IMG/VR virus record: IMGVR_UViG_3300043470_000311
Coordinates: 1 to 32,219 of that record
Length of the DNA stretch: 32,219 nt
Direction: 5' to 3' (one strand)
Origin: a virus
A model generated the notes under the pieces. The model was not told the DNA's origin. It was given only the letters and a program-made list of their open reading frames with translations, and did not search any database. A program made the translations under genes and the position numbers. Each line of letters opens with the position of its first letter. Position 1 is the stretch's first letter. Positions 237-32,219 of the stretch are shown here, in pieces.

Positions 237-262
237 TATTTGTAAATAAATTATTATATTTG
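231..262 (+). promoter_or_regulatory. Bacteroidetes-type promoter for leader RNA 1
   Basis: TTTTG at 231-235 (overlapping the stop of the SSB-like gene), a 19-nt spacer, then TATATTTG at 255-262. This matches the Bacteroidetes -33/-7 consensus. Transcription would start a few bases downstream, at about the first base of the leader RNA pairing arm at 267. Confidence 0.75.
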
Positions 263-266
263 TAAT

Positions 267-371
267 GCTTATCCGACAAATGAAAAATATTAAAAAATCC
301 AACCATTTATATTGCCACTCGCAAATTCTTTGCAGTCGGATAAGCCTTTATATTTGGTTGGTATTTTTTTT
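267..371 (+). ncRNA. Pseudoknotted leader RNA 1, upstream of HNH gene
   Basis: P1 is GCTTATCCGAC 267-277 paired with GTCGGATAAGC 335-345 (11 bp). P2 is CCAACCA 299-305 with TGGTTGG 355-361, continued after a TT/TT internal loop by TATA 308-311 with TATA 349-352. P3 is GCAAA 321-325 with TTTGC 329-333. P1 and P2 interleave, so the fold is an H-type pseudoknot with P3 inside the P2 loop. Eight T follow P2 (364-371), directly before the ATG at 372. A homologue at 31975-32077 keeps every helix with compensatory changes. It could be a cis leader (terminator or translation block) or a free RNA of about 105 nt. Confidence 0.85.
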
Positions 372-818
372 ATGAATACAAATGAAATTTGGAAAGATGT
401 TATTGGATATGAAGGATTATATCAAATAAGTAATTTTGGTAATTTAAAATCTTTAAATAGATTAATTATTTACCCAAATAATTTAAAAAACAGAAATTTT
501 AAAGGAAAAATTTTAAATAAAAATTTAAGTAAATCAGGTTATATTTATTATGATTTATATAAAAATTGTAAAAGAATTAGAAAATTTTCACATAATCTAG
601 TAATTGAAAATTTCTTTAGAAATAAAATTAATAAAGAAGATGTTAATCATATTAATGGTATAAAAACAGACAATAGACTTGAAAATTTAGAATATTGTAA
701 TAGAAGCGAAAATATGAAACATGCTTTTAAAATTGGTTTATGTGAAAATACAAAAAAACAATCTATTATAAATTTAAAAAAAAATAAAAATGCAAAAAGA
801 AATATTGCAATGGGCTGA
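372..818 (+). CDS. Free-standing NUMOD4-HNH homing-type endonuclease
   Basis: 148 residues. A NUMOD4 DNA-binding motif lies at about 4-35 (EIWKDVIGYEGLYQISNFGN). An HNH_3-type nuclease core follows: H near residue 74 in SHNLV, then NHINGIKTDNRLENLEY at about 91-107 and RSEN after it. It probably makes a site-specific cut in competing phage DNA. The ATG at 372 is chosen because upstream in-frame codons lie inside the pseudoknot RNA and because the paralogue at 32078 starts with the same codons. The gene is much more AT-rich than the ERF region, and its last 29 bases overlap the MazG-like gene, which suggests insertion as a cassette. Confidence 0.85.
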   Translation: MNTNEIWKDVIGYEGLYQISNFGNLKSLNRLIIYPNNLKNRNFKGKILNKNLSKSGYIYYDLYKNCKRIRKFSHNLVIENFFRNKINKEDVNHINGIKTDNRLENLEYCNRSENMKHAFKIGLCENTKKQSIINLKKNKNAKRNIAMG

Positions 819-1074: not shown

Positions 1075-1093
1075 AAAATAATTAGTAATTTTG
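1060..1093 (+). promoter_or_regulatory. Bacteroidetes-type promoter for leader RNA 2
   Basis: TTTG at 1060-1063, a 22-nt spacer, then TAATTTTG at 1086-1093, which fits TAnnTTTG. The first helix of leader RNA 2 begins four bases after it. The -33 box lies within the last codons of the MazG-like gene. Confidence 0.7.
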
Positions 1094-1096
1094 CAA

Positions 1097-1177
1097 TGTC
1101 GGGTGAGAGCGACACAGTAAGAAATTAAAAAGCTAAAGCCATTGGTTAGACTCTCTCACATCTAATCAGTGGCTTTT
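1097..1177 (+). ncRNA. Kissing-loop leader RNA 2
   Basis: Hairpin A is TGTCG 1097-1101, an 8-nt loop GGTGAGAG 1102-1109, and CGACA 1110-1114. Hairpin B is a 16-bp stem with two G-U pairs, AAAGCCATTGGTTAGA 1135-1150 with TCTAATCAGTGGCTTT 1161-1176, and loop CTCTCTCACA 1151-1160. Loop A GTGAGAG (1103-1109) is fully complementary to loop B CTCTCAC (1153-1159), a 7-bp kissing interaction. Hairpin B is followed by a short T tract and then the ATG at 1191. The layout matches leader RNA 3. Confidence 0.8.
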
Positions 1178-1190
1178 GAATTTAATAACT

Positions 1191-8149: not shown

Positions 8150-8668
8150 GTGACAAAGTATAAACAAATAACAGAACTGTTTAAAGACACATCGTTAAAA
8201 AACAACGCTCGGAAGTTATGCAACAACCGAGATATTTTTAACGACTTATTCCAAGAAACATTTATTTATTTGTTGGAACTGCCTGACGAAAAGTTTAATC
8301 GAATAAATAACCTTAAGGCATTTGCTTTCACTGTAATGTTCGGCAAAGCTAACAGTCAGGCGCGTAACTATAACTTGAATGGAAAAGACAACGTACTTTT
8401 TGAAATGTCTAACAAGTTCGGAATATTCGACGGGACTAACATTGCTCATAATGAATATAACCATAAGATTGATGAAGACTTTGATAAGGTCATATCATAT
8501 TTAAACACCGATAATACTATAAAGGAGACGGATGTTTATGTTCTATTTGAATCGACAAACGATAAGACATTGAAGGAATTATCAAAGGACTTAGATATGA
8601 GTTACCATACTATTAGATTAAACAGAAAGAAACTAATAAAAAAGATAATTAACAATGTAGTATTATAG
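8150..8668 (+). CDS. Sigma-70-family-like (ECF-type) transcription factor
   Basis: 172 residues. The first part (about 10-75) looks like sigma region 2: NRDIFNDLFQETFIYLLEL followed by NLKAFAFTVMFGKANSQAR, the usual DLxQExF and helix pattern. The last part (about 125-170) looks like region 4, with helix-turn-helix LKELSKDLDMSYHTIRLNRK. It would direct RNA polymerase to phage promoters. It lies just before the terminase genes, the usual place for a late regulator, and a non-host promoter-like motif recurs in late gaps. GTG 8150 is the best start seen. Promoter specificity is inferred. Confidence 0.72.
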   Translation: MTKYKQITELFKDTSLKNNARKLCNNRDIFNDLFQETFIYLLELPDEKFNRINNLKAFAFTVMFGKANSQARNYNLNGKDNVLFEMSNKFGIFDGTNIAHNEYNHKIDEDFDKVISYLNTDNTIKETDVYVLFESTNDKTLKELSKDLDMSYHTIRLNRKKLIKKIINNVVL

Positions 8669-9614: not shown

Positions 9615-10746
9615 CATAAACAATGAGCCGTATAAATACTATGTGTTAAACATAGGTAGGCAATTTGGAAAAAGTTTACTCGCTATGAATCAATGCTATT
9701 ACTGGGCCTTTAATGAAAAGAGCGTACAAATAGCGTGGGTAAGTCCTATCTATAAACAAGCTAAGAAAGTCTTTGATGAAATGGTTAAGGCTTTTGATAA
9801 CAGTAATTTAATTACTTCAAATGCAAGTGAACTGATAATTAAGACTAAGAATAATAGCACTATTCAATTCTTTTCAGCAGAACGTTATGATAATTTAAGG
9901 GGATTTACTTTTGATTACCTTGTTTGCGATGAATTTGCATTCATAGACGAGAGAGCGTGGACGGAAGTTTTGAGGGCTACTGTTTTAGTTAAGGGTAAAA
10001 AAGTTCTATTAATATCAACTCCAAAGGGTAAGAATCATTTTTACAACTTATTCAACCTAGACGGAATCAATCCCGCTTATAAGTCATTTAAGATGACCAG
10101 CTATGATGGGTTAGCTCAAGCAGATGAAATAGATGGCGCACGTCATACACTACCTGACAATGTATTTAAACAAGAATACTTAGCCGAGTTCATTGACAGT
10201 GGTTCGGGGGTGTTTAGTAACATCACAATTAATGAGAATCCTGAACGAACATCACGCTATTACGCTGGTATTGACTTAGGACGTGCAGATGATTACACTG
10301 TTATCGTAATTCTTAACGAACGTGGGCAAATGGTCTTATGCGAACGTTGGCGACACAATACATGGTCTAATATAGTAGACGCACTATTAAGCGTTTTAAG
10401 ACGTTTTAACGCATCGTGTAAAGTTGAGGTAAATAGTATAGGAGATGTTATATTTGAGCAGTTACAAGCCAAATACACAAACATAGAGCCATTTACTACT
10501 ACAAGCAAAAGTAAACAAGATGCTGTAGAGGCTTTGCAAGTGGCAATTCAAAACAATGAATTTAGTTTATTGGAAATAGACTGGCTAAAAAAAGAGTTTG
10601 ATATATTCACTTATGAATATTCTCATAAGACTAGGAATATAAAGTATTCAGCTCCGCAAGGATTTCACGATGATGGTGTTATGGCTTGTTGTATTGCATA
10701 CAATGCTTTGAAGTCAAGATTTACCAATATTATAGATATCGTTTAA
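9547..10746 (+). CDS. terL: Terminase large subunit
   Basis: 399 residues. Walker A-like GRQFGKS at 37-43 and Walker B LVCDEF near 124-129 form the packaging ATPase. The RNase H-like nuclease begins at about 238 with YYAGIDLGRADD, and a later D in HDDGVMA completes the acidic set. It packages DNA into proheads and cuts concatemers. The start at 9547 keeps the conserved LYQPHKNQAKIHNSIN leader upstream of the ATPase, which justifies the long overlap with the small subunit. Its last codons contain the TATC box of a candidate late promoter. Confidence 0.92.
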   Translation: MESKQISVTLYQPHKNQAKIHNSINNEPYKYYVLNIGRQFGKSLLAMNQCYYWAFNEKSVQIAWVSPIYKQAKKVFDEMVKAFDNSNLITSNASELIIKTKNNSTIQFFSAERYDNLRGFTFDYLVCDEFAFIDERAWTEVLRATVLVKGKKVLLISTPKGKNHFYNLFNLDGINPAYKSFKMTSYDGLAQADEIDGARHTLPDNVFKQEYLAEFIDSGSGVFSNITINENPERTSRYYAGIDLGRADDYTVIVILNERGQMVLCERWRHNTWSNIVDALLSVLRRFNASCKVEVNSIGDVIFEQLQAKYTNIEPFTTTSKSKQDAVEALQVAIQNNEFSLLEIDWLKKEFDIFTYEYSHKTRNIKYSAPQGFHDDGVMACCIAYNALKSRFTNIIDIV

Positions 10747-20514: not shown

Positions 20515-21531
20515 ATGGCAATTAATTACACACAAGTAGACATTCGCGGAGTAGCCGCCAGTCCAATAATCGAGGAAGTCCTATTTGAAAACAAAACATT
20601 AGGCGAAGGTTATGTAACATTTGAAGAGGAAGTTAAAAACGAAGTTATCTTTACAGAAGGTTCAACTACTGCTTCAATGCAAGCATATACAAGTGGTGCG
20701 CCTACTACAGCTGGTTCATTAGATTTATTTGATATCTCTATTACACCAACTAAATACTTGTATTACCAAACTTTTGACCCTAACACTTTACGTCCGTCTC
20801 GTTTCAAAAGAGATATGAAACCAGGAGCTTGGGAAACTTTATCAAATGAATTTGAACAAGTTGTAATCGGTGGTATGTATTCTAAAAAAATCGCATTCGA
20901 TGCTGAGTTCCAATTTTGGAGCGGGATCACTTCTGCACAAAAAACTGCAATCGCGGCTTTAACTGCTGGTCCTTTAAATACTGAAATCGGTGCAGACGAA
21001 AAAACAGTTGCGGCGGCTTTAACTGCTGGTCAATTTAACGGAGTTGTTGCATCTATGATGTATAACAATTGGAATGCTACTTCTACAGCTGGCGTTGGTA
21101 AACGTGTTAAGGTTGACGGTATCGCTATCACTTCATCTAACATTGCCCAAGAATATGCGCGTGTGTATGCTGCAATACCAGCTACTGTATTAGCTAGTGG
21201 TATGCCAGCTTATATCTACGCTCCTAAGTCTCACATGCAGTTAATCAACATCTATAACACCGCGGCTACTTACCGTGATTTATTTAGTGTTCAAGGCGAA
21301 AAATATTTCTACAACGGAGTTGAAATTAAATTTGTGCCTGTTCCTGAAAACGTAATTATCGCGGCTCCAAAAGAACATTTATTTTGGGTAACTGATTTAA
21401 CTTCTGACGTTAACAAATTTGAAGTTAACAAAGTTGCTTTAAACCAAGATTTATTATTCGTGAAACACGTTGGAACTATCGCTGCTTATGTAGCTAACCA
21501 AGCGTTTAACGTATTATATTGCGGATCTTAA
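20515..21531 (+). CDS. Major capsid protein (HK97-fold)
   Basis: 338 residues. N-terminal arm, then an extended-loop-like segment (FTEGSTTASMQAYTSGAPTT), a spine-helix region (WETLSNEFEQVVIGGMYSKK), and P- and A-domain-like strands (YIYAPKSHMQLINIYN; KYFYNGVEIKFVPVP; HLFWVTDLTSDVNKF). This is a typical HK97-fold layout. The internal repeat ALTAGPLN/ALTAGQFN lies at about 149-181. Codon use is richer in C-ending codons than its neighbours, as expected for a highly expressed protein. A strong terminator follows. Confidence 0.85.
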   Translation: MAINYTQVDIRGVAASPIIEEVLFENKTLGEGYVTFEEEVKNEVIFTEGSTTASMQAYTSGAPTTAGSLDLFDISITPTKYLYYQTFDPNTLRPSRFKRDMKPGAWETLSNEFEQVVIGGMYSKKIAFDAEFQFWSGITSAQKTAIAALTAGPLNTEIGADEKTVAAALTAGQFNGVVASMMYNNWNATSTAGVGKRVKVDGIAITSSNIAQEYARVYAAIPATVLASGMPAYIYAPKSHMQLINIYNTAATYRDLFSVQGEKYFYNGVEIKFVPVPENVIIAAPKEHLFWVTDLTSDVNKFEVNKVALNQDLLFVKHVGTIAAYVANQAFNVLYCGS

Positions 21532-21540
21532 TATTAACAT

Positions 21541-21569
21541 AGGGAGGAGTTGAACGCCCTCCCTTTTTT
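21541..21569 (+). terminator. Intrinsic terminator after capsid gene
   Basis: AGGGAGG 21541-21547 pairs with CCTCCCT 21558-21564, with a 10-nt loop and a T6 run. A strong rho-independent terminator that closes the scaffold-capsid unit and separates it from the tail tube gene. Confidence 0.9.
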
Positions 21570-21593
21570 ACAAACATTTAAAAATATTTATAT

Positions 21594-31938: not shown

Positions 31939-31970
31939 TTTTATATTTAATTAAATAATTATTATATTTG
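31939..31970 (+). promoter_or_regulatory. Bacteroidetes-type promoter for leader RNA 4
   Basis: TATATTTG 31963-31970, with a weak TTTT box 19 bases upstream (31939-31942). The -7 box and following bases TAATGCTTAT equal those at 255-272. Confidence 0.65.
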
Positions 31971-31974
31971 TAAT

Positions 31975-32077
31975 GCTTATTCGACATGAAAACATTAATT
32001 AAATCCAATCCTTTACATTGCCATTTGCTAACACTTAGCAGTCGGATAAGCCTTTGTATTGGGTTGGTATTTTAATT
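31975..32077 (+). ncRNA. Pseudoknotted leader RNA 4, homologue of RNA 1
   Basis: P1 is GCTTATTCGAC 31975-31985 with GTCGGATAAGC 32041-32051. P2 is CCAATCC 32005-32011 with GGGTTGG 32061-32067, plus TACA 32014-32017 with TGTA 32055-32058. P3 is GCTAA 32027-32031 with TTAGC 32035-32039. Compared with RNA 1, three base pairs change on both strands and two change to G-U, so every helix is kept. It ends directly before the ATG of another NUMOD4-type gene. Confidence 0.88.
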
Positions 32078-32219
32078 ATGAATACAAATGAAATTTGGAA
32101 AGATATACCTAATTATGAAGGATTATACCAAGCTAGTAATTTAGGTAATATTAGAAATAAAAAAGCATTAGTTCTTAAACCTCACAAACATAATTATTTA
32201 ATGATAAAATTATGGAAAA
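32078..32219 (+). CDS. NUMOD4-type HNH endonuclease, N-terminal part
   Basis: 47 codons to the right edge. The start MNTNEIWKDIPNYEGLYQAS matches the NUMOD4 motif of the gene at 372, and the first 27 bases are identical. It diverges after the first motif. The nuclease part lies outside the window. Paralogue in a second RNA-HNH cassette. Confidence 0.75.
   Translation, partial: MNTNEIWKDIPNYEGLYQASNLGNIRNKKALVLKPHKHNYLMIKLWK

Follow-up and report, generated by a model that had tools for sequence, protein, structure and literature searches.

Covarying pseudoknot leaders directly upstream of phage homing endonuclease genes, probably a portable switch within a mobile unit

Two NUMOD4-HNH homing-type endonuclease genes in the window (the whole stretch analyzed here, a 32,219-bp IMG/VR phage record) are each directly preceded by a leader RNA that folds into an H-type pseudoknot. 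Comparison of related phage sequences demonstrates the fold of this leader, its position relative to the AUG, its insertion jointly with promoter and nuclease gene, and its exchange between nucleases. It is probably a portable switch whose effect, in the direction and level of control that we infer, is to limit or time the nuclease. The window also encodes a terminase, a primase-helicase, an SSB-like protein, a MazG-like protein, and an ERF recombinase, and its SSB-like gene is flanked by the two leader copies. The features of this first set of leaders, family I, are the following.

255..262, plus strand: Bacteroidetes -7 promoter element TATATTTG of leader 1; predicted +1 at 267
267..371, plus strand: leader RNA 1, family I pseudoknot (pairing and covariation)
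267..277, plus strand: P1 5' strand, pairing with 335-345 (11 bp)
280..298, plus strand: A-rich linker; the conserved AUG at its start (280-282) opens a non-conserved small ORF
299..311, plus strand: P2 5' strand, pairing as 299-305/355-361 (7 bp) and 308-311/349-352 (4 bp)
312..317, plus strand: conserved unpaired core TTGCCA
321..333, plus strand: P3 hairpin, 321-325/329-333 (5 bp)
335..345, plus strand: P1 3' strand
349..361, plus strand: P2 3' strand
362..371, plus strand: T-rich tract from P2 to the AUG
372..818, plus strand: NUMOD4-HNH homing-type endonuclease 1 (HNH1), 148 aa; 3' end overlaps the mazG-like start at 790
31963..31970, plus strand: -7 promoter element TATATTTG of leader 2; predicted +1 at 31975
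31975..32077, plus strand: leader RNA 2, family I (pairing and covariation)
32078..32219, plus strand: NUMOD4-HNH endonuclease 2 (HNH2), cut by the window end; complete, at 156 aa, in the relative G001

Every pair that the earlier note proposed for this H-type pseudoknot (P1, 11 bp; P2, 7 + 4 bp; P3, 5 bp) is present in the sequence, and both 267-371 and 31975-32077 lie directly 5' of NUMOD4-HNH genes. The HNH1 frame starting at 372 contains NUMOD4 and HNH_3 domains (Pfam). The pseudoknot strength of copy 1 was reached by none of 199 dinucleotide shuffles and that of copy 2 by one of 199, and ORFs 372, 1191, and 32078 have leaders that rank among the strongest pseudoknots of the approximately 45 ORF upstream regions of the window. 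Scanning copy 1, the third leader of the window (see below), and related leaders against Rfam 15 gave best scores at chance level, none at the gathering threshold and copy 1 far below it; no known family was matched in this check, which the earlier note had called for. Elsewhere in the window, a strong P1/P2 combination (21465-21593, AGGGAGG/CCTCCCT) followed by a T-run occupies an intergenic region before ORF 21594 and may simply be a terminator.

Three IMG/VR scans using RNA-only patterns, written as DNA and blind to the downstream gene, together with one protein-based scan, yielded 12 distinct family I leaders, with all homologues located on metagenomic phage contigs. MAFFT misplaces the P1 3' strands of the diverged leaders (L015, L163 twice, L166, and L167). 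On the segment-anchored alignment used instead, which is biased towards structure and has whole-strand shuffles as its sole control, P1 is 100% paired with changes on both sides in 7 of 10 pairs, P2 is 97.6% paired with such changes in 5 of 7, and P3 is 100% paired with such changes in 4 of 4, while the observed pairing of P1, P2, or P3 was reached in 0 of 2,000 strand shuffles. For the seven distinct close homologues, 98.9% of the cells are paired, compared to 23-38% when the partners are slid by 1-3 columns. The P2 extension TACA/TGTA is nearly invariant and carries little information. In L015, P1, P2, and P3 are largely different in sequence and the pairing is kept. The view that structure rather than sequence is conserved is thus upheld, with P1, P2, and P3 all covarying across the 12 distinct leaders; a loss of pairing among homologues, which would have spoken against it, was looked for, and they keep it. 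Twelve leaders are enough to establish the fold but too few to judge phylogenetic breadth. A pattern search of GTDB genomes returned 23 matches, none with the flanking structure, and blastn found no homologue among isolated phages and plasmids. A search of a library of open-access papers found no description of such leaders.

The proposed tie between a new structured leader and homing endonuclease genes is supported, since 11 of the 12 distinct family I leaders precede genes for homing-type endonucleases, the twelfth gene being cut by the contig end, and every complete downstream gene encodes a homing-type nuclease. These genes are of the NUMOD4-HNH type (the window twice, L002, L006, L026, L031, L015, L163, and L167), the GIY-YIG type (L005 and L166), or the endonuclease VII type (L163, minus strand); in L001, the leader is followed by a Zn-knuckle frame cut by the contig end. 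L163 carries two family I leaders on opposite strands, at 8178 (+) before the NUMOD4-HNH gene and at 10400 (-) before the endonuclease VII-type gene.

Related phages reveal what is inserted. At the ssb-mazG site, the window contains promoter, leader 1, and HNH1; in G001 and L001, the mazG start lies within a few bases of the ssb stop, and all three are absent. Before ssb, the window and G001 contain promoter, leader 2, and HNH2, and the site is empty in L001 and G003. As promoter, RNA, and nuclease gene are absent together, these three constitute the inserted unit, and the idea that the leader is part of the mobile unit itself is borne out by the empty sites. The HNH1 stop (816-818) falls inside the mazG-like gene (ATG at 790), placing the 3' end of the inserted gene over the start of the neighbor behind it; a similar overlap is seen in G003. 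At the ssb-mazG site, G003 has a leader followed by a different HNH gene, whose protein is 62% identical to HNH1. Its leader is identical to leader 2 at 102 of 103 nt and to leader 1 at only 85 of 106, meaning that orthologues at this site with 62% protein identity carry leaders of different subtypes. The L001 leader is identical to that of G003 (103/103), yet precedes a different reading frame. Overall, leaders identical at 102-103 of 103 nt precede nucleases that are unrelated or 37-39% identical, which indicates that leaders recombine independently of the nuclease.

The beginning of the RNA had been placed at the expected transcription start, and the predicted agreement is better than first stated: in 12 of the 13 loci of family I, the TAnnTTTG element ends exactly 4 nt 5' of P1. 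The -7 element of F. johnsoniae has its G at position -5 (PMC6847099). With this spacing and the 4-nt distance, we infer that G267 is +1 and that the transcript starts at the first base of P1. In copy 1, a second promoter-like element TATATTTG is present inside P2 (349-356); it is absent from copy 2 and from the other aligned family I leaders. Transcription from it could yield a short nuclease mRNA that does not include the pseudoknot, as happens with T4-type genes. A conserved late promoter within P2 was rejected, the element at 349-356 occurring in copy 1 only.

The same plan recurs with other sequences. Pseudoknots of the H type (p<=0.01) were found in 11 of 29 NUMOD4-HNH upstream regions (of 73 other NUMOD4-HNH genes, those set apart from the preceding gene by 80 nt or more), compared to 6 of 151 controls (Fisher p 2e-6), counted after removal of the L115 and L123 pseudoknots, which are the antisense of nuclease leaders. 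A search by RNA motif alone defined family II, with 37 distinct leaders in Bacteroidetes-type phages (L117:1905-1991, L142:1910-1994, and L168-L226), which follows the plan of family I but with a kissing loop in place of P1. Hairpin 1 is present in 35 of the 37 leaders, all seven kissing pairs form in 35 of 35, and the A-T and G-C kissing variants always match (15 and 20 leaders); P2, taken as the best helix per sequence, is 100% paired by construction, whereas hairpin 1 and the kissing pairs are not. The terminator-like P2 is followed by a T-run reaching the AUG, with T at a median of 7 of the 9 positions that follow P2 (background for at least 7 T in 9 nt, 0.6%). Endonuclease genes follow 33 of the 37 leaders: 26 NUMOD4-like and 2 GIY-YIG-like homing endonucleases, 2 NUMOD3-HNH, and 3 endonuclease VII-like. 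The rest precede two replication proteins (L223 and L226), one unknown gene (L225), and one remnant. No Rfam family matched the family II leaders. In L183 (7088-7107) and L215, the family II P2 hairpin and loop 2 stand without hairpin 1 and without a nuclease gene behind them, possibly as a remnant.

A third leader in the window shares the plan as well.

1086..1093, plus strand: -7 promoter element TAATTTTG of the third leader; predicted +1 at 1098
1098..1190, plus strand: third leader, same plan with its own sequence, directly before the non-nuclease (non-HEG) ORF 1191-1502

It begins with a hairpin (1098-1101/1110-1113) whose loop region 1103-1109 pairs with 1153-1159, the loop of a 16-bp P2 hairpin (1135-1150/1161-1176), and it is kept in G001, L001, G003, and L004 with compensating P2 changes. 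Considered as an architecture, the leader is strongly but not exclusively tied to homing endonucleases. An evenly balanced possibility is that phages of Bacteroidetes, and probably of Firmicutes, share a general class of +1-anchored leaders, comprising no fewer than three sequence families, where base pairing joins the 5' end of the transcript to the loop of a terminator-like hairpin touching the start codon, and that homing endonucleases have repeatedly captured this class as a portable gate within a selfish cassette. Separately, in L123 (1897-1998), L115 (1889-1994), L112, L092, and L113, phages that look like those of Firmicutes with their TATAAT promoter and Shine-Dalgarno sequence, an analogous long P1/P2 pseudoknot with a T-run precedes NUMOD4-HNH genes.

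The reading that we favor, and consider probable, is that free-standing homing endonuclease genes of phages carry the leader as a portable 5' attenuator, which acts in cis and gates their expression. Transcription would start at the first base of P1, as predicted from the promoter element, and the nascent RNA would fold P1, P3, and P2 into the pseudoknot supported by covariation. P2 would be completed last, with the T-rich tract directly after it and touching the AUG. Together they may act as an intrinsic terminator for part of the transcripts, exclude ribosomes from the start, or both, while P1 would lock the terminator loop to the 5' end, stabilizing or regulating the gate. The nuclease would then be made only at a low level, or only when something such as a phage-modified RNA polymerase lifts the block. 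T4-type homing endonucleases are known to be held down by RNA structure (PMC2988022; PMC3014915), which makes a gate likelier than a free RNA.

A stable stem with a U tract between it and the start codon is clear in family II and weaker in family I. The earlier note had the RNA ending with T8 at the HNH start; the stretch between P2 and the AUG is indeed kept T-rich over about 10 nt, but T8 itself is unconserved, copy 2 reading TATTTTAATT. Family I tails are only T-rich (5-8 T of 9), the P2 loop of copy 1 is long (37 nt), a simple terminator scan gave none in family I, and no alternative antiterminator fold was identified. We count against the attenuator these weak tails, the long P2 loop, and the occurrence of the architecture before a few non-nuclease genes (window ORF 1191 and the replication genes at L223 and L226).

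Among the other readings, a translational operator of the T4 gene 32 type is unlikely. A phage protein, such as the adjoining SSB, would nucleate on the pseudoknot, spread over the T-rich strand, and block the AUG with no termination, following the precedent of T4 gp32, which binds a 5' pseudoknot and an A+U-rich tract over the start site (PMC535899, PMC3014915). Both window copies flank the SSB-like gene; however, family I also occurs at other sites, such as L001, where it is far from its ssb, and P2 with its T-run in family II is terminator-like rather than a single-stranded landing site. We regard as improbable a role as an mRNA 5' stabilizer, with P1 shielding the transcript end from decay and the rest supporting the fold: the predicted +1 of family I coincides exactly with P1, and most family II leaders have hairpin 1 within 3-4 nt of theirs, but the constant short spacing between P2 and the AUG, the T tract, and the conserved unpaired core are left unexplained.

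In type III toxin-antitoxin systems, tandem pseudoknot repeats form an RNA antitoxin that is specific for a single RNase toxin. The succession of promoter, pseudoknot RNA, terminator-like element, and nuclease gene resembles this layout, and a free RNA acting on the nuclease protein in a similar way was the other option offered by the earlier note. It appears very improbable, whereas the leader option is supported: RNAs 0-1 nt apart precede unrelated nucleases (L001 compared to L002 and copy 2), and a single RNA family stands before the genes of GIY-YIG, HNH, and endonuclease VII proteins, as one unit without tandem repeats. Near-identical RNAs with unrelated nucleases leave no room for RNA-protein co-adaptation, which disfavors a direct RNA antidote. 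Equally hard to credit is a leader peptide, translated from the AUG after P1, with ribosome passage controlling folding or coupling termination to the nuclease start: this AUG is present in 12 of 12 family I leaders and the stop lies at most 20 nt from the nuclease AUG in most, but ACATTGCCA, the conserved core, is read in differing frames (copy 2, L015, and L163), the stops span -54 to +11 as counted from the nuclease AUG, the small frame of two leaders is continuous with that of the nuclease, and the family II hairpin-to-P2 linkers inspected contain no ATG. A translated small ORF as a conserved element was rejected on these changing frames and varying stops; translation of the region had been named as evidence against a structured RNA, and the inner frame is not kept as a peptide.

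Few selfish genes of phages are as common as free-standing homing endonucleases, whose known expression control consists mostly of T4-type hairpins. Two covarying RNA families (12 and 37 distinct leaders), unmatched in Rfam, common to unrelated nuclease families and co-inserted with them, suggest that selfish nucleases bring along regulators of their own and that the combinations of regulator and nuclease are reshuffled. At about 100 nt and with a predictable +1, the leaders are amenable to simple reporters.

Several known RNAs resemble these leaders in part. The HEARO or omega RNA of IscB likewise lies upstream of an HNH-containing nuclease in a mobile element; here there is no Rfam match, and the proteins are small NUMOD4-HNH, GIY-YIG, or endonuclease VII enzymes rather than IscB. 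HDV-like ribozymes have a 7-bp P1, a short J1/2, and a catalytic C in J4/2. Family I has the HDV-like strand order P1-P2-P3-P1'-P2', but such a ribozyme was rejected, with P1 at 10-11 bp, J1/2 at about 20 nt, about 3 nt between P1' and P2', and no Rfam match. The manA, wcaG, and STAXI motifs are likewise structured RNAs of phages or mobile elements found by comparison, and STAXI is pseudoknotted and lies near SSB genes (PMC2864571); they are associated with other genes, STAXI is tandem, and no Rfam model matches the present leaders. The T4 gene 32 operator is also an H-type pseudoknot near the 5' end of a phage mRNA, with an A/U-rich start region after it, but it serves one autoregulated SSB gene from about 67 nt upstream, whereas here only about 10 nt lie between the pseudoknot and the AUG of a mobile nuclease; the leaders are not those of ssb, which is a mere neighbor at the two insertion sites of the window. 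The hairpins of T4-type homing endonuclease genes (I-TevI, I-TevII, I-TevIII, segB, and Aeh1 mobE) are also directly upstream of the nuclease start, where the RNA structure is shown or implicated in reducing translation (PMC2988022; PMC3014915). A simple hairpin on a Shine-Dalgarno sequence does not describe the present leaders, as P1 and P2 are interleaved and no SD-like sequence was found in the fully read leaders. T4-type hairpins pair the RBS of one gene and are bypassed from a late promoter; the leaders described here form a covarying pseudoknot from +1 and, unlike those hairpins, are common to unrelated nuclease families and exchanged between them.
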